The notes beneath the pieces are model-generated. The model did no database searches and was not told the DNA's origin. It worked only from the letters and a program-made list of their open reading frames with translations. From Gammaproteobacteria bacterium (lineage in GTDB: Bacteria > Pseudomonadota > Gammaproteobacteria > SZUA-152): a stretch of DNA of 64,000 nucleotides. The stretch lies in contig JAVVEP010000001.1 of the NCBI GenBank assembly GCA_032250735.1, positions 124,001 to 188,000 on the forward strand, written 5' to 3'. Within the stretch, counting starts at the first letter, position 1; every line of letters begins with the position of its first letter. A program made the translations under genes and the position numbers. Of this stretch, positions 11,848 through 46,296 are shown one piece after another.

Positions 11848-11887
11848 CCCCGCGCGATGAAGAGTGATGGAGAGTAAAGGCACACCG

Positions 11888-12406
11888 ATGAGCGACACCG
11901 GCAACCTGGATGGCCTGGAACTGCTCGGCGATGGTGAGCGCTTTCAGGAGACCCTCTGCGAGATGATCGAGGGGGTGCCCATGTTCAGCGAGCTGACGCG
12001 CGCGGAGGTGGAATCCCTGGCCGGCTATCTGCGCGCCTATGAGGCCAAGCAGGGTACGGCGATTTTCAGAGAGGGCGCCAAGGGCATGTTTATGTGCATC
12101 GTGCTGAGCGGTCGGGTCGACATTCTCAAACAGGACCAGGAGCACGAACAGAAGAAAGTGGCGGTGGTGCGCCCCGGAAAATCCATGGGCGAAATGTCAC
12201 TGCTGGATGAACTGCCCTATTCGGCGACGGCGGTGGCGCAGGAGGATACCCGGCTGCTGCTGTTGACGCGCATGAGCTTTCTGCGTCTGGGTGAAGAGCG
12301 ACCGCTGTTGTGTAATCTCGTGCTGCGACAGATCGCGCGCCTGATGAGCCTGCGCCTGCGCCAGACGACAGGTGTGTTGCTGGACTTTCTGAACGTGGAA
12401 AAATAA
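11888..12406 (+). CDS. Solitary cyclic nucleotide-binding domain protein
   Basis: A 172-residue protein made almost wholly of one CAP/CRP-like cNMP-binding domain (about 30-150): FREGAKGMFMCIVLSGRVDIL, then GKSMGEMSLLDELPYSATAVAQEDTRLL with the phosphate-binding-cassette region. The family's G-E-x-x-L is present, and a serine (YSATA) stands where CRP has RSATV, so nucleotide binding is not assured. No helix-turn-helix follows. It begins 40 bases after lpd, so it may belong to the PDH operon and act as a regulatory partner. ATG 11888 has AAAGG at good spacing; ATG 11867 is an alternative. Confidence 0.82.
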   Translation: MSDTGNLDGLELLGDGERFQETLCEMIEGVPMFSELTRAEVESLAGYLRAYEAKQGTAIFREGAKGMFMCIVLSGRVDILKQDQEHEQKKVAVVRPGKSMGEMSLLDELPYSATAVAQEDTRLLLLTRMSFLRLGEERPLLCNLVLRQIARLMSLRLRQTTGVLLDFLNVEK

Positions 12407-23215: not shown

Positions 23216-23617
23216 ATGACAACACCAATAACACAAGGCGCTCATCACATTGGTTTCACGGTATCCAGGCTGGAAGAAAGCGCATTATTTTTTACAGCGT
23301 TGCTAGGCTGGGAAGAAGTGCGACGAAACAGTGAATATCCTGCAATTTTCGTAAGCGACGGAAAAATCATGGTTACTCTGTGGGCAATAAAAGAAAATCC
23401 ATCGAGCGAGTTTAACAAGAATAAAAATATCAGCTTGCACCACATTGCATTCAACGTAAACAGCGAAAATGATTTAAACAACGTCTATAAAAAGATGCTC
23501 AATAACAATGTAAATATTGAATTCGCGCCGGAATTATTGCGAGACGGGCCTGCAAAACACATGATGTGCTATGAACCTAGTGGTATTCGAGTGGAATTTA
23601 TATGGCGCGGGAACTGA
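23216..23617 (+). CDS. VOC (glyoxalase/bleomycin resistance) superfamily protein
   Basis: A 133-residue single-copy VOC protein with the paired beta-alpha-beta-beta-beta motifs: GAHHIGFTVSRLEESALFF at the start, LHHIAFNV in the middle and GIRVEFIW at the end. The two histidines and the late glutamate occupy typical metal-ligand places. Members include glyoxalase I, dioxygenases and resistance proteins; the substrate cannot be inferred. Its codons are AT-rich (many AAT, AAA, ATA), unlike neighbours, which points to recent acquisition. Start ATG has AAAGGA upstream. Confidence 0.85.
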   Translation: MTTPITQGAHHIGFTVSRLEESALFFTALLGWEEVRRNSEYPAIFVSDGKIMVTLWAIKENPSSEFNKNKNISLHHIAFNVNSENDLNNVYKKMLNNNVNIEFAPELLRDGPAKHMMCYEPSGIRVEFIWRGN

Positions 23618-23813
23618 AAAACATAACTATCGACTGTGCAGCAGCAGTGGGAATGAAGTCATGAATCGAGACCATGCGCCCGCATCGTGATGATCTGGTC
23701 GCGAGGTAGCTCAACTGTAATCTAGCAACGGGCGCCTGGGCCATTCGGCCCGGTGCGGATGGCGTCAGCGGCCGAATAATGAGGCCAGGATAAAAAGCTT
23801 AGGAGTGAGTCTG

Positions 23814-24029
23814 ATGTTTCAGTGTCGTGGTTATATTTCATTGGCCGTCTTTTGTATGGCGCTGCTCACCGCTCAGAACGCCTATGCCCTGCGTTGCGAT
23901 GGCGGGCTGATTGGAGAAGGCGATGCCATTAATCCTCGCATCAAAGTCAAAGATGGCGCGACCAAAAGGCCAGGTTCGATTTATCGCGCCAGCAGCGCCA
24001 TCTCTATCCCCTCTCTATTGTCCCATTAG
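23814..24029 (+). pseudogene. Truncated DUF2845-like secreted protein remnant
   Basis: A 71-residue reading frame with a clear signal peptide (SLAVFCMALLTAQNAYA) followed by LRCDGGLIGEGD, which resembles the first conserved segment of DUF2845 proteins. The rest of the domain, including its second cysteine region, is missing, and the frame ends in sequence without similarity to the family. AGGAG sits eight bases before ATG 23814. It could be a short intact gene, but truncation is more likely given the neighbouring broken gene. Confidence 0.5.
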
Positions 24030-24123
24030 AATCTGCCTGATGTTCGTGAAGCAGTAGTGGATTTATTTCCTCGCGGTCTTCAGAATATCGCCACGACCAC
24101 TACCCGATAATTTAGGCTTCCCG

Positions 24124-24539
24124 ATGAACGATACCCTTGAAACGACACTGGGTTTCTACGAATTTTTTGATTGCTACGTGATTGCTACGTGATTGCAACT
24201 TTCAACGAGGGCGTAACCGTAACACGAGACTGTGCGCCCGAGATTATTGAGATGTTGAACAGTAGGATGGAAAACCGCTTTGGCTTTATCTCAAACAAAA
24301 TCAACAGCTATTCTGCTGACCCATTCATCATGCGCGATGTTGTTCCGGCCGTGCCGCTGCTCGCCAGCTATTGCAATGTGGTCTACGGCAGGCAATCACG
24401 CGATTATACAAAGTACGGGAATTTTGTGGTGCCGGAAACCTTTCCGTTGGGCAATTTTAATCTCTTGAACGAGGGCATTGCGTGGAGCATTGCTATGGCC
24501 TCAAGGGATGAAGGCTGTCAGGCGACGGACGAAACCTGA
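24124..24539 (+). pseudogene. Hypothetical gene broken by an 11-bp tandem duplication
   Basis: The reading frame from ATG 24124 runs MNDTLETTLGFYEFFDCYVIAT and hits TGA inside a duplicated 11-mer. Removing one copy of GATTGCTACGT restores one continuous frame to the stop at 24539, giving about 134 residues (…DCYVIATFNEGVTVT, then NRFGFISNKINSYSADP). I do not recognise the family with confidence; the layout recalls short STAS/SpoIIAA-like proteins with an N-K-I-N-S-Y-S core. The frameshift could be real decay, phase-variation-like slippage or a sequencing error. Confidence 0.65.
24169..24196 (+). repeat. 11-bp tandem duplication (2.5 copies) causing a frameshift
   Basis: GATTGCTACGT at 24169-24179 and 24180-24190, then a partial GATTGC. 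The unit length is not a multiple of three, which explains the broken frame. Confidence 0.9.
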
Positions 24540-24726: not shown

Positions 24727-26499
24727 ATGAAACAACAGCTTGCCCTCCTGATCCAGACCGCCATCGATGCCCTGCAAACCCAGGGTGTGTTGCCTGCGGA
24801 CCTGGCCCCCACGATCCAGATCGACCGTACCCGCGACCCTAGCCACGGCGACTATGCCTGCAATATCGCCCTGTCGCTGGCGAAGGCGGCGGGCTGTAAG
24901 CCGCGCGATCTGGCGGAGCAACTGGTCGCGGCCCTGCCGGCGTCGCCGCAGGTGGCCAGGGTCGAGATCGCCGGGCCGGGCTTTATCAATTTTCGCCTGA
25001 CCGAGGCCGCCGCCTACGCGGTGGTGGCGGCGGTGCTGGAGGCGGGCGAGGCCTACGGGCGGTCGACCATCGGCAATGATCGCTCCGTGCAGGTGGAATT
25101 TGTGTCGGCCAACCCCACCGGCCCGCTGCATGTGGGCCATGGTCGCGGTGCGGCCTATGGCGCGGCGGTGGCGGACCTGCTGGCGGCGGTGGGTTTCAGG
25201 GTGCATCGCGAGTATTACGTCAACGACGCCGGGCGACAGATGGATATTCTGGCCGCCTCGGTATGGCTGCGTTATCTCGATCTGTGCGGCGAAAACACCC
25301 ATGACGAGCTGCCGTTTCCCGTCAACGCCTACAAGGGCGATTACGTGTGGGATATCGCCGCCACCCTGCGCCGCGAGCACGGTGATGCCTATTGTCATGC
25401 CGCCGCGATCGTGTTGAGCAATCTGCCCGCCGATGAGACCGAGGGCGGCGACAAGGAGCGCTATATCGATGCGCTGATCCATCGTGCCCGCGAACTGCTG
25501 GGTGATGCGGCCTATCGTGTGGTGTTTGATGCGGGGCTGAACAGTATTCTGGATGATATCCGCCGTGACCTGGAAGGCTTCGGCGTGGTCTACGAGGAGT
25601 GGTTTTCGGAGCGCTCGCTGACCGAAAGCGGTGCGGTGGGTCGGGCCATCGAGCGGCTCAAAGAGGCGGGCCATCTGTATGAGCAGGGCGGCGCCTGGTG
25701 GTTCCGGTCTACCGATTTCGGTGACGAGAAGGACCGTGTGGTGGTGCGCGATAACGGGCAGACGACGTATTTTGCATCCGACATCGCCTACCACATGCAA
25801 AAACTGGAGCGCGGCTTTGATCGGGTGATCGATGTGTGGGGCGCGGACCATCACGGCTACGTGCCACGGGTCAAGGCGGCGCTCACCGCGCTGGGCGATG
25901 ATGCCGACCGGCTGGACGTGTTGCTGGTGCAGTTTGCGATCCTGTATCGCGGCGGGCAGAAGGCGCAGATGTCGACCCGTTCCGGCGAATTCGTCACCCT
26001 GCGCGAGCTGCGTGAAGAGGTGGGCAATGATGCGGCGCGTTTCTTTTACGTGATGCGCAAGTGCGAGCAGCACATGGATTTCGATCTGGATCTGGCCAAG
26101 TCGCAGAGCAGCGATAATCCGGTGTACTACATTCAATACGCCCATGCCCGGGTATGCAGTGTGCTGCGGCAGATGGAAGAAAAAGGTCTAACGCATAATA
26201 GCGATAACGGCCTCGCCAACCTGGCCGTGCTGACGGAATCGCATGAACAGGCGCTGCTCACCGGGCTGGCCCGTTATCCCGAAGTGGTGGAGGCCGCGGC
26301 ACTGAATCATGAGCCCCATCAGCTGGCGCATTTTTTGCGCGAGCTGGCCAATGAATTTCACACCTATTACAACGCCCATCAGTTTCTGGTGGAGGATGTG
26401 GCGCTGCGCGATGCGCGCCTGTGCCTGATCAAGGCCACGCGGCAGGTGATCGCCAACGGCCTGGGCCTGTTGGCGGTATCCGCGCCCGACAGCATGTAG
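24727..26499 (+). CDS. argS: Arginyl-tRNA synthetase
   Basis: Class I synthetase that charges tRNA-Arg. The 590-residue protein has the N-terminal Add1 domain (about 1-90), the HIGH-type motif HVGHG (H135) after [12 protein letters not shown], and the C-terminal anticodon-binding DALR domain with [17 protein letters not shown] 24727 gives the standard N-terminus ([13 protein letters not shown]); upstream in-frame sequence is not conserved. It is normally close to priA in gammaproteobacteria; here the AT-rich island separates them. It is followed 15 bases later by an SPOR gene. Confidence 0.96.
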
Positions 26500-26514
26500 G
26501 GCCTGCCCGAAGCC

Positions 26515-27105
26515 ATGGCCAAGGATTACAAGAACACCCCCCGACCCAAAAACAAGGCACCCAGGGCGGCCGCCCCCGGCTGGCTGTGGATGCTGGCCGG
26601 CCTGGCGATCGGCCTGTTTATCGCCCTGCTGGTCTACCTGAAAGATCAGTCGCCGAGCGGCGATGCGAGCCGCAAGCCCGCGCCGGTGGTGGAGAAGGGA
26701 CGGGCGGCGGGCAAGCCGGTGGCGTCCTCTGCAAAGCCGTCCGCCGCTGAAGACGCCGCGCCCGAGAGCAACAAGCCGCGGTTTGATTTCTATAACCTGC
26801 TGCCGGAGATGGAGGTTTTCATTCCGCCGCAGACCCTGGAGACCGAACGCGAACGGGAGCCGACGGAGTCCATCACCTATTACCTACAGGTCGGCTCGTT
26901 CAGGAATTTTGCCGATGCCGATCGTCTGCGCGCCCAACTGGCGCTGAGCAATATCGAGTCGCACATCCAGCGTGTGACCATAAATGACACCCAAACCTGG
27001 CACCGGGTGCGGGTTGGCCCCTTCCAGAGTGCTCGCAAAATGGACACGGTGCGGAATCGCTTGCGTGCCCAGTCTATTGACCCTATCGTCCTAAAGGTTA
27101 AATGA
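26515..27105 (+). CDS. SPOR-domain cell-division protein, FtsN-like
   Basis: A 196-residue bitopic membrane protein. A short basic cytoplasmic tail (KDYKNTPRPKNKAPR) is followed by one transmembrane helix (about 22-42), a Pro/Ala-rich periplasmic linker and a C-terminal SPOR domain (about 118-195: YYLQVGSFRNFADADRLRAQLAL ... WHRVRVGPF). SPOR domains bind denuded septal peptidoglycan. Position directly after argS matches ftsN-type genes in gammaproteobacteria; it is shorter than E. coli FtsN (319). Confidence 0.88.
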   Translation: MAKDYKNTPRPKNKAPRAAAPGWLWMLAGLAIGLFIALLVYLKDQSPSGDASRKPAPVVEKGRAAGKPVASSAKPSAAEDAAPESNKPRFDFYNLLPEMEVFIPPQTLETEREREPTESITYYLQVGSFRNFADADRLRAQLALSNIESHIQRVTINDTQTWHRVRVGPFQSARKMDTVRNRLRAQSIDPIVLKVK

Positions 27106-27301
27106 CCGCCGCCCGGCGGTGGTGAAATGACGCTCAGGGTCAGCTTCTGACACTCTGTGACAGCCATCACGGTACGGCGAGTTGCCCGGTTTTACACTGC
27201 ATTTCACGGCTTTCTGTTGTAAACCTTTTGTTGCCCTTGCCGCTATATCTCGCAGTAAAAGCATTATAGTCAGTCGTCTCTTCAGTTTGCCGGAATAGGA
27301 C

Positions 27302-30300
27302 ATGAGCGCCGCAAAACAACACTTGGACCATAAGCTGCTGAGAACCCTGTCGCCGCTGTGCGATCTTCCGCCCGATATGCTGGCGGAATTGAGCGGCAAA
27401 TCGCAGGTGGAACAGGTGGTGGCCGGGGCGACCATATTCACTATCGGCGAACGCGATCACCGCACCCTGTACCTGGTCGCCGGTACGCTGGAACTCACCG
27501 ATGCCACCGGGCGCAGCCGTCAATTAAAGGCCGACAGCAAAGAGGCCCGCCAGCCGCTCGACCCCCAAAAACCTCACCTCTATACCGCAGTCGCCAAAAG
27601 CGCCGTCTCACTGCTGAACATCGATACCAGCCTGCTGGAGATGCTGCTGGGCTGGGGCAGCAAGCAGACCTACGAAGTCTCCAATATCGAGGTGCATGAA
27701 GAGGAAGAGACGGATTGGATGAGCCGCTTCCTGCAATCCCGGGTTTTCCTCAAGCTGCGCGCCGAGAATATCCAGAGCATGCTGATGCGTATGGAGGAGA
27801 TCGCGGTACGCGCGGACGACGTCATCATCCATCAGGATGATATCGACGATAACTATTACATCATTGCCAAGGGATCGGCCAAGGTGGCCCGGCGGGTGGC
27901 CCCCGGCGCCCCGCTGATGAAACTGGCCATACTCACGGCCGGCACCGGCTTTGGTGAAGAGGCGCTGATCGGCAACAGCAAGCGCAATGCCTCGGTCACC
28001 ATGATGGAGGACGGCACCCTGATGCGCCTGTCAAAGGCCGATTTCATCAGCCTGCTGGTGGAGCCCATTTTGCAGTATGTGTCCTTTGATGCGGCGCAGG
28101 CGATGCGTAACCCGGACCTGGAATGGCTGGACGTGCGCAAGCTGGATGAGTTTTCCCGTGGCAGCCTGCCGGATGCCAGAAATGTCCCCCTGGCGGAGCT
28201 GCGCCTCGGTATCCGCAAGCTGAATAAACTCCACAAATACGTCGTCTTCAGTAATAAAGGTGATCGTGCCGCCGCCGCCGTATTCCTGCTGAATCAGCAG
28301 GGCCTTGATGCCTATGTGCTGGAAAAGGGGCTGGCTGCCGTGCCCGCCGCGAGCCTGCAAAAGACGGCACCGGAAGGCAAGGCGTCTACGACAGCTAAAA
28401 CAACTACGACAACAACCAAGGCAACCACGGCGCCCGCAGTGGAGGTGCCCACCCTGAAGACCCTGCCGGCGCACAGCGCGCCCGAAACGGCGGACAACAA
28501 GGTCGTCAATCTGCGCGGTGAAGCGGCCGACAACAGCGCCGAGAGCGATGGCCGGGTTGAGGCCTTGATGAGCAAGGCCAAGCAACGTGTGCAGCAGGAG
28601 ATGCAACGCACACAGGTGGCGGAAAATGCGCGCAAACAGGCGCAGGAAGAGGTTGCGCGCCTGAGGGCCGAGGCGGATGTCGCCCGGCAGCAGGTGGAGG
28701 CCGAGGCCCGTCGCGCGGCGGACCAGGCGCGCTCCGAGGCCGAACGTGCCGCGGCCCAGAAGCGGGCCGATGAGCTGGCGGTGCAGCAGGTCGAAAGAGA
28801 GGCCGCCGTACAGCGGGTACAGGCCGAAGTTGCCCGGGCAGAACATGCCGAGGCGGCCCGCGCGGCCGCTGAGAAAGAGATCGAACGCATCAAGCAGGAA
28901 ACCGCCCAGGCCCGCCGGGAGATGGAAGAGCAGGCAAGGCAGGCGGCGGAGAAGGCCAAGCAGGACGCCGAGGGCGAGATCATTCGCCTCAAGGCGGAGG
29001 CGGAGATGGCCCGTCAGCGCGTGGAAAAACAGGCAAAGCTGGCCGCCGATCAGGCCCGCAGCGAGGCCGAGCGTCAACTGTCGGAAAAGCAGGCCGAGGA
29101 GGTGCGCCGTCATCACCAGGAGGTAGAGGGCGCCCTGCAGAAGGCCGAGATCGAGGCGATGCGTGCCCAGCAGGCGGAGGCGGCCCGGCAGCAGGCGGAG
29201 GATGAAGCCGAGCGCATGCGCCAGAAGGCGGAAGAGACACAGCGCGAGATGGAAGAACAGGCGCGTCTGGCGGCCGATCAGGCGCGCTCCGAGGCGGAGC
29301 GTGACGCGGCCCGGCAGCGTGCGGAATACCTGGCGGAAAAGCAGGAAGAGATTGAAGAGGCACTGAGCCAGGCGGAGGTCGCGGCGGCGCGGGCGCATGC
29401 CGCAGAGAACGAGGTAGAGAAACTTAAACAGCAGGCCGAAGACGCCCGTCTGCAGGCCGAGCAACAGGCCCGTCTGGCCGCGGATGCCGCGCGTAGCGAG
29501 GTCGAGCGTGAAATCGCCGCGCAACGTGCGGAAGAGATGAGCCGTTTTCAGGCCGAGCGGGAGGAGATGGCCCGGCTCGCCGAAGAGGGAACCCTGCGCG
29601 CCAGGGCGGCCGAGGATGCCCGCCGACAGGCGGAGGCAGAGATTCAGCGCCTGAAGGTCGATGCCGAAGTGGCCCGCATGCAGCTGGAGGAGCAGGCGCA
29701 ACGGGTGGCCGATGCGGCGCGCACCGACGCGGAGCGCGAGTCTGCACGGGCGACCGCCGCCGAACAGGCGCGTCTGCAGGCGGTCAATGAACTCGAGCGC
29801 CTACAGGCCGAGGTGGAACAGGCCCGGCTGGAGACCCAGGAGCAGGCCCGGCTGGCCGCCGATGCGGCGCGTTCCGAGGCGGAACGTGAGGCGGCGCGCC
29901 TGCGTGGCCAGGAATTGGCGCTGCAACAGGAACAGCTCGAAGAGATCGCCCGTCGCGCCGAGGAGGAGACCGCCCGGGCGGAGCTGGCGGATGAGGCCCG
30001 GCAACGGGCGGAGAATGAGATCGCCCGTCGCCAGCTTGCGGCGGAAGAGGCCGAGGCCCGTGCCGCGGCCGAGGCACAGCGGGCGCGAGAGGCCGAGGCG
30101 GCCCGTCAGCAGATGGAAGACGAGATGGCGCAGCTGCGGGCCGAGGCGGCGGCCGCGCGGGCGCAGGTGGAAAAACAGGCGAGACTGTTTGCCGCCGCAC
30201 AACGCCTGGAGGCGGAAGAGTCCGACCGGGATCAGGCGGCACTGGAGGCCGAGCGTCAACGCCGTGAGGCGGAGCAGCAGCAGGCGGCGGCGCAGAGGCG

Positions 30301-31939
30301 TGAGGCCGAAGAGCTTGAGCGGCGGGAGCAGCTGGCGGCAGAGGTCACGGCCCGGCGCAAGCAACAGGCGGAAGAGGCGGTGCGTCTGGCCAATGAAGAG
30401 GCCGAGCGCGCGCAGGAGATCGCCGCGATCATGCGCCGCGAGGCGGAGGAAGAGATCAAGCGTCTGCAGGCCCAGGCAGATGCCTCGCGCCTGAAGGCCG
30501 AGCTCGAAGTGAAGCGTTCCATCGCGGCCTCGCGTCGTGAGGTGGATAAGAACAAGGTGAAGCAGGCGGCACAGGCCAAGGCCCGTAAGGTGGCCGCCAG
30601 CCAGGTCAGCAACAAGGCCGATGAGGATAAGGCGCAGCGCACCCGCGAGGCGCGTGCGGCGGCACTGCGCGCGATCGGCAGGAGCGAGGAAAATCTCGAT
30701 GAGTTTCTGGATCTGGAGACGTCCGCTGCCGAGGTGCATGCGGCGGACGATGCCATTATTGTCAACGAGGCACAGATTGAACAGCGGGCAAGAGACCGCG
30801 AAAACCTGATCGATCCCACCGAGGTTATGAAGGTCGAGAGACAGGAACAAAAACGTCAGTGGGTATCGGACGACTTTATCTGGGAGGCCACCCTGGGCTA
30901 TCGCACTGACCCGGATGTCGAGGCTGTGGGTTCTCCTGCGGACTCTGTCGGCGTACAGCCGGAGACGCCGAAAAAGGCGGACAAGCCGACGGGCAGGCAG
31001 TCGACCGAAGCAGCCGAAAAGGGCGCCGCGGCAAAACCCTCCCTGTTTGAGACACAGGAAATCAATCGCAATATCCGCCCGCAACTGGATGTGCCCCAGC
31101 GACGCCGCAAGCGCGCCTTCGGCATGAAGATGATGATCGGGGCAGTGCTGTTTCTGGCCGTGGTTTCGGGGGGCGGTTGGTATTACCTGTCCGGTGATCA
31201 GGCCGCGTCCCAGCTGAAACAGGCCGTTGGCCAGGGGACGCAGGCGCTCACCTCGATCAAGGATAAGGTGAATCAGACTATCGGCAACATGGGGAGTAAA
31301 GAGGATGAGGCCCCGGTCGCTGACAAGGCCGCCAAGCCGGTGGATGAGGCGGCGATGCAACGCCTGCGTGAGCGCCTGGAGTCGATGAAGGCCAGCGCAA
31401 AGGCGGAGACCGCAGACAAGGAAAGGCGTGAGCAGGCGCAACAGGCGGTTAGGGCCGATGCGCAGGCCCCATTCGCATCACCCCCGGCATCACCCCCGCC
31501 GGAGACCGTCCCGGTGGTCACCGCGCCGGGACCGGTCACGCCGGAAATGGCAGCCACAGCAATCACGGAAACCACGGAGACCACTGGGCAGGATGTCGCC
31601 CCGCTGGAGACCGTAGAGGACGTGATGAGGGCGCTGTCGGAACCGGCCGGTCCGGTTGAGGATGCAGGGTCCGATCAGCAGCAGGACGTGGTGGAGTCGG
31701 TTGACGGTCTGCCCATCATTGATGAGGCCGTCCCAGCAACCCTGCCGGAATCGGCGGGCAATGCAGCGACGGTGGACGAGGCCGTTGTTGATACTGTGGT
31801 TGAAACCATTGTTGAAACCATTGTTATCGAACCCACGGAATCGGTGGCGACGCCGGCGGAGGCGAGCACGCCCACAGAATCATCCATCGCAGCACCCACC
31901 GAGACGCTGGCCAACCCTGCGGAGCCGGCGGTCGAATAA
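27302..31939 (+). CDS. Giant cNMP-binding / rhodanese-like / coiled-coil transmembrane protein
   Basis: A 1545-residue protein I do not recognise as a named family. Seen in order: a degenerate cNMP-binding domain (about 12-115); a second, clearer one (about 140-260: DVIIHQDDIDDNYYIIAKGSAKVA, GFGEEALIGNSKRNASV); a rhodanese-like domain (about 273-342: LEWLDVRKLDEFSRGSLPDARNVPL) with S317 in the place of the catalytic cysteine loop (VVFSNKGDRA); a Thr-rich linker; about 690 residues of Ala/Glu/Arg/Gln-rich coiled coil (about 420-1107) made of ~75-residue repeats; a basic stretch and one transmembrane helix (about 1275-1296); and a Pro/Thr/Glu-rich C-terminal tail. Topology is probably N-in, with the last 250 residues periplasmic. 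It stands alone after the SPOR gene. A scaffold or cytoskeleton-like role is inference. Confidence 0.85.
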   Translation: MSAAKQHLDHKLLRTLSPLCDLPPDMLAELSGKSQVEQVVAGATIFTIGERDHRTLYLVAGTLELTDATGRSRQLKADSKEARQPLDPQKPHLYTAVAKSAVSLLNIDTSLLEMLLGWGSKQTYEVSNIEVHEEEETDWMSRFLQSRVFLKLRAENIQSMLMRMEEIAVRADDVIIHQDDIDDNYYIIAKGSAKVARRVAPGAPLMKLAILTAGTGFGEEALIGNSKRNASVTMMEDGTLMRLSKADFISLLVEPILQYVSFDAAQAMRNPDLEWLDVRKLDEFSRGSLPDARNVPLAELRLGIRKLNKLHKYVVFSNKGDRAAAAVFLLNQQGLDAYVLEKGLAAVPAASLQKTAPEGKASTTAKTTTTTTKATTAPAVEVPTLKTLPAHSAPETADNKVVNLRGEAADNSAESDGRVEALMSKAKQRVQQEMQRTQVAENARKQAQEEVARLRAEADVARQQVEAEARRAADQARSEAERAAAQKRADELAVQQVEREAAVQRVQAEVARAEHAEAARAAAEKEIERIKQETAQARREMEEQARQAAEKAKQDAEGEIIRLKAEAEMARQRVEKQAKLAADQARSEAERQLSEKQAEEVRRHHQEVEGALQKAEIEAMRAQQAEAARQQAEDEAERMRQKAEETQREMEEQARLAADQARSEAERDAARQRAEYLAEKQEEIEEALSQAEVAAARAHAAENEVEKLKQQAEDARLQAEQQARLAADAARSEVEREIAAQRAEEMSRFQAEREEMARLAEEGTLRARAAEDARRQAEAEIQRLKVDAEVARMQLEEQAQRVADAARTDAERESARATAAEQARLQAVNELERLQAEVEQARLETQEQARLAADAARSEAEREAARLRGQELALQQEQLEEIARRAEEETARAELADEARQRAENEIARRQLAAEEAEARAAAEAQRAREAEAARQQMEDEMAQLRAEAAAARAQVEKQARLFAAAQRLEAEESDRDQAALEAERQRREAEQQQAAAQRREAEELERREQLAAEVTARRKQQAEEAVRLANEEAERAQEIAAIMRREAEEEIKRLQAQADASRLKAELEVKRSIAASRREVDKNKVKQAAQAKARKVAASQVSNKADEDKAQRTREARAAALRAIGRSEENLDEFLDLETSAAEVHAADDAIIVNEAQIEQRARDRENLIDPTEVMKVERQEQKRQWVSDDFIWEATLGYRTDPDVEAVGSPADSVGVQPETPKKADKPTGRQSTEAAEKGAAAKPSLFETQEINRNIRPQLDVPQRRRKRAFGMKMMIGAVLFLAVVSGGGWYYLSGDQAASQLKQAVGQGTQALTSIKDKVNQTIGNMGSKEDEAPVADKAAKPVDEAAMQRLRERLESMKASAKAETADKERREQAQQAVRADAQAPFASPPASPPPETVPVVTAPGPVTPEMAATAITETTETTGQDVAPLETVEDVMRALSEPAGPVEDAGSDQQQDVVESVDGLPIIDEAVPATLPESAGNAATVDEAVVDTVVETIVETIVIEPTESVATPAEASTPTESSIAAPTETLANPAEPAVE

Positions 31940-32014
31940 AAGACTGTGGTGAGGTTGCCGTAAGGCAGACAGGCCCTTCGGCGCTGTCGCTGAGGGTTCA
32001 GGTGTGTCAGGCAA

Positions 32015-32572
32015 TCAGGGTGAAACCGTTGTCGCCGTCCCGTCCGTTGTTTTCGCCGTATAGTCAAAGCGGCTGGTCGCCAGCGGCTGACCACTGGCGT
32101 TACTCACCACCACCGTCCACTGGCCCGTCCATTCGGGCAACAGATTTTTGCTGGAATAGACCCGCCAGCGAGCCCCCTCGCCGACCTTGAAGGTCACCTC
32201 TGCCATCACCCGATCCTCGTATTCCCAGCGGTGGGTGACGATCTCACCGGCCAGACCCCGTAAATCCGAAAAGAAAAACAGGCGTTGAATGTCGTTTGCA
32301 ACCGTGCTCAGGTTGTCCACCGGCTCGCGGTTGACGATGGCCGAGGTGAACAGGGCGCGGGCGACGCTGCCTTCCACCGGCTCAGCATTGCTCTCTACCT
32401 GAGGCGTGTCGGCGATGACCGCCGGCGCGGTGTCGGTGGCCTCGGGCGCGGCCGTTTCCGCCATGCCTGACAGTGGCAGGCCGATGAGCAGGCCCCAGAG
32501 CAGGCCGGTGGCGAGGTGGCGTTTTCGGCGGATGGTCCCGGCGATCAGGGCAAGACGGCGTGCGGCAAACAT
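32015..32572 (-). CDS. Secreted DUF2914 protein
   Basis: A 185-residue protein with a signal peptide or N-terminal anchor (RHLATGLLWGLLIGLPLSGMAE) and a C-terminal DUF2914 domain (about 85-175: ARALFTSAIVNREPVDNL, FFFSDLRGLAGEIVTHRWEYEDRVMAEVTFKVG, YSSKNLLPEWTGQWTVVV). The domain's function is unknown. ATG 32570-32572 has AGGAG eight bases upstream. It converges with the giant coiled-coil gene, whose stop is 75 bases away; its start lies 157 bases downstream of the speA stop on the same strand. Confidence 0.85.
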   Translation of the reverse strand: MFAARRLALIAGTIRRKRHLATGLLWGLLIGLPLSGMAETAAPEATDTAPAVIADTPQVESNAEPVEGSVARALFTSAIVNREPVDNLSTVANDIQRLFFFSDLRGLAGEIVTHRWEYEDRVMAEVTFKVGEGARWRVYSSKNLLPEWTGQWTVVVSNASGQPLATSRFDYTAKTTDGTATTVSP

Positions 32573-32646
32573 AGTGACGGCTCCTGGCGTAAGGTGGTTT
32601 GTTGGGTGTAGGTTTCCGATGCAGGTTGAGGTGCGGGCATGCTGGT

Positions 32647-32682
32647 CGCTATCCCAGCCGCTACCCCAGCCGCTACCACGGG
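32647..32682. repeat. 12-bp tandem repeat, nearly three copies
   Basis: CGCTATCCCAGC, CGCTACCCCAGC and a partial CGCTACCACGGG lie between the DUF2914 start and the speA stop codon. Confidence 0.8.
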
Positions 32683-32729
32683 TTGGGGCCAGTGTAGCAG
32701 AGTCGCCCTGCGCGAGCAGGCTGCTGCGC

Positions 32730-34643
32730 TCACGCACTGTTCTTGAAATAGGTGTAGCCACTGAGCCCCGCGGTCAGTTCGGCCAGGTATTGGTCGCGCT
32801 GGCCGGCGCTGAGCGCACCCTGCTGGAGTTGCTGCCGATAGGCACCGAGCATCAGCTGGGCGTCAAAGTGTACGACGCGCAGCACGCTATCCACCGTGTC
32901 GCCATGGTGGAAGTGCTCCAGCCGGGGCTGGCCCTCGGCGTCCAGGCGCACATCCACGGCATTGGTGTCGCCGAACAGGTTGTGCATGTCGCCGAGAATT
33001 TCCTGATAGGCGCCGATGAGAAAGAAGCCCAGCCGATAGTTTTCACCGGCGCTGATGTCATGCAGCAGCAGGCTGGAATCGATGCCCTCGCCGTCGACAT
33101 AGTGGTCGATCCGGCCGTCAGAGTCACAGGTGATATCCTGCAGGGTGGCCCGCCGGGTGGGCTCTTCGTCCAGCCGACTGAGTGGCACGATGGGGAAGAT
33201 CTGGTCGATGGCCCAGACATCGGGCAGTGACTGGAACAGCGAGAAATTGCAGAACACCTTGTCCGCCAGTTTTTCGCTGAGCTCGTCGAGAATCGCCCGG
33301 TGGGCGCGCTGGGCCGGGTCCAGCTGTTGCTGCACCTGCCGGCATATCGCGAAATAGAGCTCCTCCGCCTGTGCCTTCTGCGGCATGCTGAGCACCCCGT
33401 GCACGTACATGGAGTGCGCCTCGGCCAGCCAGTGCGCGGCGGTGTGGTAGGTCTCGATGGCGGTACGGGGGTCGCTCCTGGCGCACAGCCCGTTCCAGAG
33501 ATCATGCAGCACCACCGGGGCATCCACGTCGGGCTCGCTGGTGATGCGGGCGCCAATCTTTTCCACATCGATGACATCGGTAATCAGCAGCGCATGGTGC
33601 GCAGTGAGCGCGCGGCCGGACTCGGTGATGATATCGGGGTGGGGCAGCCGGTGTTCGTCACAGGCCTCCCACAGGGTATGCACCACGTTGTTGGCGTATT
33701 CCTGCAGGCTGTAATTCATGGAACAGAGATTGCGTGAGCGGCTGCCCTCGTAATCGATGCCGAGTCCGCCGCCCACATCGATGCAGTGGATCTTCACCCC
33801 CATGCGATGCAGTTCGACATAGTAGCGGGCAATCTCGCGCAGGCCCTGCTGGATATCGCGGATGTTGCTCAGCTGCGAGCCCATGTGGCAGTGCAGCAGG
33901 CCGAGGCAGTCGAGCATGCCGGCCTGTTGCAGGCGTTCGATCACCTGCAGGGCCTGGGCGGCCGACAGTCCGAATTTGGATTTCTCCCCGCCGGTGTTTT
34001 GCCAGTTGCCCTTGCCGATGGAGGCGAGTCGCAGGCGCAGCCCGAGACGTGGGCGGATCGCGAGTCTGGCGGATTCCTCGATCACCAGCGCCAGCTCGGC
34101 GGGCTTTTCCAGCACGATGGTGATGTGGTGGCCGAGCTGCTGGCCGATCAGCGCCAGGCGGATGTATTCGCGGTCCTTGTAGCCGTTGCAGATGATGGTG
34201 CCCTGGGTGTTGTCGGGCGAACCGCCAGGGATGGACAGCGCCAGCACCGCCAGCAATTCCGGTTTGCTGCCACACTCCAGCCCGACCCGGGTCTGCGCAT
34301 CGCTGGCCGCCAGCAACTCGCTGACCACGTTGTATTGCTGATTCACCTTGATGGGATACACCGCAGTGAACCGGCCCTGGTAATGATGCGTCTCGATGGC
34401 CGCGGCAAAGGCGCGGCTGAGCTGGTGGACGCGATCGCGCAGGATGTCGGGAAAACGCACCAGCACCGGCAGCTCCAGCCCGGCCTGCTGGATGTCATCG
34501 GCCAGGTGATGCAGGTCAATGCTGGCAGTGGTGTTCTGCGGTGAGGGACGGGCGTGCAGGTGCCCCTCGTGCACATCAAAGTAGCCACCACCCCAGTGCG
34601 CAAAATTATAGACCGCGCGTGCCTTTTCGTTAGTCCATGTCAT
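32730..34643 (-). CDS. speA: Biosynthetic arginine decarboxylase
   Basis: PLP enzyme that converts arginine to agmatine for polyamine synthesis. The 637-residue length is typical of SpeA. It has the alanine-racemase-like barrel with the PLP lysine K99 in YPIKVNQQYN, GLECGSKPELLAVLA, CHMGSQLSNIRDIQ, DVGGGLGIDYEG and TESGRALTAHHALLI. It is divergent from speE, the other polyamine gene, with about 200 bases between them. The start ATG 34641-34643 has only a weak Shine-Dalgarno. Confidence 0.96.
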   Translation of the reverse strand: MTWTNEKARAVYNFAHWGGGYFDVHEGHLHARPSPQNTTASIDLHHLADDIQQAGLELPVLVRFPDILRDRVHQLSRAFAAAIETHHYQGRFTAVYPIKVNQQYNVVSELLAASDAQTRVGLECGSKPELLAVLALSIPGGSPDNTQGTIICNGYKDREYIRLALIGQQLGHHITIVLEKPAELALVIEESARLAIRPRLGLRLRLASIGKGNWQNTGGEKSKFGLSAAQALQVIERLQQAGMLDCLGLLHCHMGSQLSNIRDIQQGLREIARYYVELHRMGVKIHCIDVGGGLGIDYEGSRSRNLCSMNYSLQEYANNVVHTLWEACDEHRLPHPDIITESGRALTAHHALLITDVIDVEKIGARITSEPDVDAPVVLHDLWNGLCARSDPRTAIETYHTAAHWLAEAHSMYVHGVLSMPQKAQAEELYFAICRQVQQQLDPAQRAHRAILDELSEKLADKVFCNFSLFQSLPDVWAIDQIFPIVPLSRLDEEPTRRATLQDITCDSDGRIDHYVDGEGIDSSLLLHDISAGENYRLGFFLIGAYQEILGDMHNLFGDTNAVDVRLDAEGQPRLEHFHHGDTVDSVLRVVHFDAQLMLGAYRQQLQQGALSAGQRDQYLAELTAGLSGYTYFKNSA

Positions 34644-45831: not shown

Positions 45832-46296
45832 ATGATCAAACGCTTTAAACAATTCTTTGAAAAACACCTGTCGCCACCGGCCGATGACGAAGTCGTGGAT
45901 CAGGATCGGCTGCACCTGGCCACGGCGGCGCTGCTGGTGGAGATGACGCGCGCCGACGGCGAGGTCCGCGAGGACGAGCAGGCCGCCGTGGCGCGGGCAA
46001 TATCCAGGACCTTCAATATCGATGCACAGAAAACGGCGGAGCTGATCGAGCTGGCGGAATCGGAGATCGCCGACGCCACCTGTTATCACCAGTTCACCTC
46101 CCTGATCAACAGGCACTTTTCCAGGCCGCAGAAGGCGCAGGTGGTGGAGATGTTGTGGGAGGTGGCCTACGCCGATGCGGAGATGGAAAAATACGAAGAG
46201 CACCTGCTGCGCCGGCTTTCCGATCTGCTGTACGTACCACATGCCGACTTTATCCAGTCCAAGCTGCGGGTCAGGCGGCGTCTGGGGCTGGAGTAG
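45832..46296 (+). CDS. TerB-like protein
   Basis: A 154-residue all-helical cytoplasmic protein of the TerB/DjlA N-terminal superfamily, with the acidic metal-binding pattern MTRADGEVREDEQAAV at about 39-54 and its pseudo-repeat VAYADAEMEKYEEHLLRRLSDLL at about 113-135. Function is unknown; the fold is linked to tellurite resistance clusters, but no other ter genes are nearby. Confidence 0.85.
   Translation: MIKRFKQFFEKHLSPPADDEVVDQDRLHLATAALLVEMTRADGEVREDEQAAVARAISRTFNIDAQKTAELIELAESEIADATCYHQFTSLINRHFSRPQKAQVVEMLWEVAYADAEMEKYEEHLLRRLSDLLYVPHADFIQSKLRVRRRLGLE

Follow-up and report, generated by a model that had tools for sequence, protein, structure and literature searches.

A gammaproteobacterial protein family with tandem cyclic-nucleotide-binding domains, a rhodanese-like fold and, in its long members, a predicted membrane anchor

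The 64,000-nucleotide stretch of DNA analysed here (GenBank assembly GCA_032250735.1, contig JAVVEP010000001.1, positions 124,001 to 188,000; hereafter the window) carries a single uninterrupted open reading frame, here designated X, that lies between a gene for an FtsN-like SPOR-domain protein and a convergent DUF2914 gene (Table 1). The Pfam search of X returned two stretches of the cNMP_binding family (E 2.6e-19) and one Rhodanese domain at residues 264-346 (E 6.8e-10), and no further domain. No equivalog family was returned by the NCBIfam search, and MoeB was discarded as an identity for X as it scored 19 bits against a cut-off of 633, which reflects the rhodanese fold only. The initial annotation knew of no named family with this layout, and the same holds for every library searched, Pfam and NCBIfam among them. 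In the open-licence literature, a scope in which subscription journals fall mostly outside, no paper was found that describes the succession of two cyclic-nucleotide-binding (CNB) domains, rhodanese domain (Rho), helix and transmembrane (TM) segment. A sigma70 scan of positions 26400-32800 matched no promoter.

Table 1 Features of gene X and of its two neighbours. Coordinates are positions in the window, and residues are those of X.
Feature	Residues	Coordinates	Strand	Basis or remark
SPOR-domain (FtsN-like) membrane protein, upstream of X		26515..27105	+	Pfam; NCBIfam ftsN below cut-off
Gene X, 1545 aa		27302..31939	+	CNB-A, CNB-B, pseudo-rhodanese, linker, long charged helix, juxtamembrane motif, TM, low-complexity tail
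CNB-A	24-120	27371..27661	+	second Pfam cNMP_binding stretch, AlphaFold2 fold; degenerate, without the Glu/Arg phosphate-binding cassette
CNB-B	139-256	27716..28069	+	Pfam, AlphaFold2, Foldseek (PKG/PKA-R); ligand-competent by sequence
CNB-B phosphate-binding cassette FGEEALIGNSKRNASV	217-232	27950..27997	+	alignment columns
Rhodanese-like domain, catalytic position S317	262-346	28085..28339	+	Pfam
Ala/Thr-rich linker	350-420	28349..28561	+	poorly conserved: 42-57% identity, indels among close relatives
Long Ala/Glu/Arg/Gln helix	421-1130	28562..30691	+	repeats of about 76 aa, charge period of 8.46 residues
Juxtamembrane cytoplasmic motif WVSDDFIWEATLGYRTDP	1187-1204	30860..30913	+	kept in those long proteins of the family that extend this far
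Single transmembrane helix	1272-1290	31115..31171	+	hydrophobic segment, RRRKR before it
Predicted periplasmic low-complexity tail	1291-1545	31172..31936	+	no Pfam domain
Secreted DUF2914 protein, convergent with X		32015..32572	-	Pfam

A mis-assembly of separate genes, considered from the outset, was ruled out because the full-length frame recurs in many independent MAGs. Homologues, full-length or truncated by contig ends, occur in most genomes of the window's GTDB order, with most heads 65-81% identical. When X was compared with three relatives, dN was 0.12-0.19 in the head and helix and dS was at least 1.2 or saturated, and such low dN against near-saturated dS indicates that the frame is under purifying selection. 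X is a real membrane protein, so far uncharacterised, and its family is widespread in Gammaproteobacteria. Opposite the helix lie two long antisense frames, 28031-29701 (-) and 29801-31441 (-), of 556 and 546 aa, most probably a side effect of the codons (Ala/Glu/Arg) of which it is composed. Three further proposals were set aside: a phage origin (the head of X matched no phage), a plasmid origin (its short paralogue matched no plasmid) and a role in anti-phage defence (no match from the PADLOC models).

The AlphaFold2 model of residues 1-366, built from a 57-row alignment, had a mean pLDDT of 88.5 and contained the barrels of both CNB domains as well as the rhodanese fold. In a Foldseek search with this model the tandem-CNB PKG and PKA regulatory subunits ranked first (E 6e-18), and these were the best matches of the tandem CNB in both fold and sequence. 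The two cNMP-binding folds of the initial annotation were thus recovered by Pfam, by the model and by the structural matches, even if CNB-A searched alone fell under the Pfam cut-off (E 5e-4). Among the 57 aligned relatives the cassette residue E219 of CNB-B is invariant and R228 is present in all except one (56/57); the pattern FGE(E/D)...R, in X FGEEALI...RNASV, is near-invariant in long and short family members. As the Glu/Arg pair is kept in CNB-B and absent from CNB-A, X has one working and one degenerate CNB pattern. X differs from PKA-R and PKG in this degenerate CNB-A and in having the rhodanese domain, rod and TM segment in place of any kinase or kinase-docking region.

The residue that follows the CNB-B arginine is Asn, instead of the Ala typical of PKA or the Ser/Thr of PKG, so cAMP and cGMP cannot be told apart from the sequence. 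The cyclases encoded in the genome of the window comprise one adenylate cyclase of class I and three cyclase domains of class III, and a gene combining FHA and class III adenylate/guanylate cyclase domains was found a few genes from X at five loci in two sister GTDB families. The ligand of X is likelier to be cAMP than cGMP. The cyclic-nucleotide-sensing part of the earlier proposal agrees with the canonical phosphate-cassette residues of CNB-B and with the adenylate cyclases of the genome. At L078, L080, L081, L083 and L092, where the FHA and cyclase gene lies near relatives of X, TonB-like and NERD genes are also nearby. Elsewhere in the window (11864-12406, +) a small protein of 180 aa has a single cNMP-binding domain (E 1.6e-20).

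The rhodanese fold of X is kept, and catalysis is unlikely because the catalytic Cys is replaced by Ser (residue 317), as had been noticed at first reading; at this position 42 of the 57 relatives have Cys and 15 have Ser.

CNB-CNB-Rho heads were found in 168 of 369 sampled gammaproteobacterial genomes. Long versions (900-2000 aa), counted as those with open frames of at least 900 aa among the matches listed, are present in at least 44 genomes of at least 23 GTDB families. Outside the window's clade most of these long versions end in a non-catalytic, predicted periplasmic SUMF1/FGE-like domain (PF03781). It follows the TM helix in each of the ten tails of other families that were tested (L094, L088, L084, L095, L079, L082, L093, L098, L090 and L102), and L096 and L103 also carry it, as judged from their sequences and the rooted tree. 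The nearest solved structures of this domain are PvdO, the ToxD kinase domain, FGE and PorK/GldK; it is without the catalytic FGE Cys pair and has paired Cys elsewhere. No SUMF1/FGE-like match to Pfam was obtained in the tail of X, nor was the domain found in any complete member of the window's clade. These SUMF-type proteins (1300-2000 aa) resemble X in a homologous head (about 33-47% identity), a long helical rod and one TM helix in the same order; unlike X they end in PF03781, most keep the rhodanese Cys, and a true heptad coiled coil was seen in the four that were tested. They look like a separate, undescribed receptor-like architecture. As a side observation, they adjoin PfkB, Rieske, HU-like or TerB genes.

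In a head tree rooted with an outgroup, short CNB-CNB-Rho proteins are basal and the long proteins form two sister clades, SUMF-type (support 88) and SUMF-less (support 99, the clade of the window), joined with support 85; f132 forms a third, small SUMF group that is placed apart. The short proteins are likely the ancestral form, and outside Gammaproteobacteria only short forms were found. X belongs to this unnamed family of long CNB-CNB-Rho proteins: it has the head, the rod and the one TM helix, and does not have the SUMF feature. The first reading of X as lying outside any well-described family has to be qualified, since homologues with the architecture are widespread and the layout is no orphan; that the family is not well described still stands.

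The helical region of X contains no Pro over 777 residues (395-1171) and only five Gly in residues 421-1130. The heptad signal of its ILMVFYW residues (power 3.4) did not rise above the shuffle mean of 3.6, 266 of 500 shuffles being as high, and a canonical long coiled coil of the crescentin or intermediate-filament type was rejected. Charge instead follows a period of 8.46 residues, with a power of 50 (99% value of the shuffles 9.2; 0/500 shuffles), the self-identity at a lag of 76 residues is 0.289 compared with 0.152 in the shuffle test, and opposite charges at i/i+3 and i/i+4 are in excess over shuffles (z 8.5). A hydrophobic stripe was detected when Ala was included (period 3.62, power 13.4, 0/500 shuffles). 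Of the coiled coil of about 690 residues that had been proposed, the long helical stretch was therefore retained and the coiled-coil character was not. In the same shuffle tests four SUMF-type relatives gave heptad powers of 28-85 and a charge period that was slight or absent.

To judge from these periodicities, the helix of X, with a charge period inside the 6-9 residues expected of a charged single α-helix, is closer to that structure than to the canonical coiled coil. It shares with charged single α-helix (SAH/CSAH) rods and TolA-like Ala-rich helices a high content of Ala, Glu, Arg and Gln, a regular charge period and the excess of i/i+3,4 salt bridges, and differs from them in its length (about 700 aa), its 76-aa repeats and the conservation of both sequence and length within the genus. 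Within the genus most relatives have indels of 0-5 residues in about 690, with 19 in the most divergent (L043), and identity in the helix (67-79% overall, 73-79% where indels are 0-5 residues) is close to that of the globular head. For comparison, of four SUMF-type pairs whose heads are of comparable identity (68-76%), three have rods of only 30-39% identity and about 235-365 indel residues, and the fourth, a pair of family f132, has a conserved rod (72% identity, 31 indel residues). Given such conservation of length and sequence, the helix is more than a passive spacer in the lineage of the window. Its exact length is not universal, since outside the genus one genus of the same GTDB family has 50 additional residues and other genera have indels of 23-131.

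The motif WVSDxFIWEATLGYR (from residue 1187) is common to the long proteins of the window's family that reach this region, with a variant, FISDQIMWETALG, in L105. The one TM helix and low-complexity tail expected earlier were both found again, as a hydrophobic segment at 1272-1290 with low-complexity sequence thereafter. The head is probably cytoplasmic and the tail periplasmic, because RRRKR precedes the TM helix and the SUMF1-like domain that follows it in relatives has conserved paired Cys; the same two features speak for the membrane tethering with a cytoplasmic cyclic-nucleotide head suggested by the initial annotation. The tail is the least conserved part of X (39-45% identity among close relatives), and its sole recurring segment is a short stretch of the MQRLRERLESMKA type (RLRERLESMKA-like).

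Taken as a whole, X is tentatively regarded, with somewhat less than even confidence, as a cAMP-responsive (less likely cGMP-responsive) long-reach tether or scaffold anchored in the inner membrane. The head would be a PKA-R-like tandem CNB in which the second domain binds the nucleotide and the first is a degenerate regulatory domain, and the rhodanese fold, probably catalytically dead, may serve as a docking module. This head would be carried on the tip of an unbroken, rigid and charge-patterned helix of about 700 residues, which at 0.15 nm per residue would measure about 105 nm if straight; the cytoplasmic juxtamembrane motif (WVSDxFIWEATLG), the TM helix and a flexible periplasmic tail would follow. 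Nucleotide at CNB-B would alter the contacts of the head or rhodanese domain with a partner, and X could thereby link or release that partner at a fixed distance from the membrane. The identity of the ligand, the topology, the gating, the partner and a single rod rather than a bundle are what we infer in this model.

Since the Ala-inclusive stripe makes helix-helix packing possible, a bundle or filament could exist instead of a lone rod, and the helices of X might pack through their charge pattern and Ala stripe into a cytoplasmic filament attached to the membrane and controlled by the CNB heads. In known rod proteins a regular charge periodicity brings about lateral register; the long-range charge periodicity of X, its significant stripe and 76-residue repeats, and a helix that within the genus is constant in length and strongly conserved in sequence, are in keeping with such an assembly. 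Against it count the lack of a heptad core, the indels in other genera of the family and a helix composition that also fits a single charged helix, and we consider it doubtful. A cAMP-gated molecular ruler or membrane-anchored filament, in which a helix of about 100 nm and constrained length sets the distance from sensor to inner membrane, is likewise judged unlikely.

X might also act as an outside-in receptor whose periplasmic part senses a cue that the helix relays to the CNB-rhodanese head, with sensing moved to a partner such as the DUF2914 protein. The SUMF-tailed relatives, whose periplasmic domain is without the catalytic Cys pair, presumably sense outside-in. DUF2914 is kept beside X only in the SUMF-less clade: it adjoins X both in the GTDB family of the window and in three more families belonging to that group, and among the genomes sampled from the class it occurs in 10 of the 11 that have a SUMF-less X (adjoining X in 7 of 11) and in 100 of all 369. 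Of the 19 genomes with a SUMF-type X, two of whose X frames are cut by contig ends, 10 have the gene, and in none of the ten is it beside X. As exceptions, one genus of the window's family has the gene elsewhere, and it is absent from 4 of 24 genomes of the order, some of which are incomplete. DUF2914 is a better-conserved neighbour of X than the FtsN-like gene and a candidate periplasmic associate. The receptor reading is nevertheless distinctly unlikely for X, as the window's clade is without a folded periplasmic domain, the tail evolves fast, and a single helix of about 100 nm would be a poor relay unless coiled with another. The AlphaFold2 model of the DUF2914 protein is an all-beta sandwich, and its fold search gave weak matches (TM 0.3-0.4) to lipid-binding beta-sandwiches of the UNC119/RhoGDI/PDE-delta type.

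The initial annotation had suggested, from the FtsN-like neighbour, that X positions division or cell-pole machinery. The order argS-SPOR-X is present in the window and in other members of its GTDB family, and two publications describe CbpA, a two-CNB cAMP protein of Pseudomonas aeruginosa, as polar (PMC7247823, PMC3019171). However, the linkage to SPOR is not kept beyond this one GTDB family, so the FtsN-like gene next door says little for a role in division; in other families the genes beside the relatives are unrelated ones (DUF2914, TonB-like, TerB, PfkB, HU or Rieske), and in the window some 196 bp separate X from the SPOR gene. We regard this placement as improbable. An active sulfurtransferase scaffold using rhodanese chemistry is scarcely credible, since every long protein of the window's family has Ser in place of the catalytic Cys, even though the fold is present in X and Cys is kept in the short paralogues and most SUMF-type relatives. 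No conserved operon of X with an effector gene was found. Two other observations concern the surroundings: a TerB-family gene (45832-46296, +) lies about 14 kb from X, TerB being also near X relatives in several other families, and between priA and argS there are a glyoxalase-family gene and one small unassigned frame (23216-24539, +).

Returning to X as a cAMP-responsive tether, CbpA (PA4704) provides a bacterial precedent of a tandem-CNB receptor. Its first CNB is degenerate and its second functional, and we know of no rod or TM segment in it. PA4704 presumably adjoins heme-uptake genes; the likely pseudomonad short relatives of X (L147-L151) adjoin genes that appear by eye to encode NAD kinase and 2,4-dienoyl-CoA reductase. 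As cited in PMC7247823 and PMC11139211, CbpA (Endoh and Engel in 2009) is a polar cAMP-binding protein and a non-transcriptional cAMP receptor, and CRP is called the only cAMP effector in most bacteria in a review (PMC7247823). Work on bacterial cAMP has been dominated by CRP-type transcription factors, and the X family adds putative receptors of PKA-R style in close to half of the gammaproteobacterial genomes sampled, which in at least 23 GTDB families of the sample occur as very long, mostly membrane-anchored versions. In these bacteria cAMP may have a direct effect on the machinery of the membrane or of cell organisation. A helix of about 700 residues under constraint of both length and sequence is a structural oddity open to testing; were the ruler or filament reading true, it would represent a previously unrecognised class in Gammaproteobacteria, in a family whose other branch has a periplasmic SUMF1-like domain.

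The short CNB-CNB-rhodanese proteins (about 350-390 aa) have the same head as X with the near-invariant CNB-B cassette, and differ in having no helix, TM segment or tail, in keeping the catalytic Cys and in their locus. The genome of the window encodes one such paralogue (G000:C46:834-1898, L108), with the Cys kept, which stands first in a birA-coaX-SPOR row of genes also present in two further genomes of the family. Proteins of 800-900 aa with the CNB-CNB-rhodanese head, a helical tail and no TM segment were also observed, arranged as divergent or tandem pairs, at L112 (3594-6140 and 6680-9376) and L113 (3261-5819 and 6246-8747).
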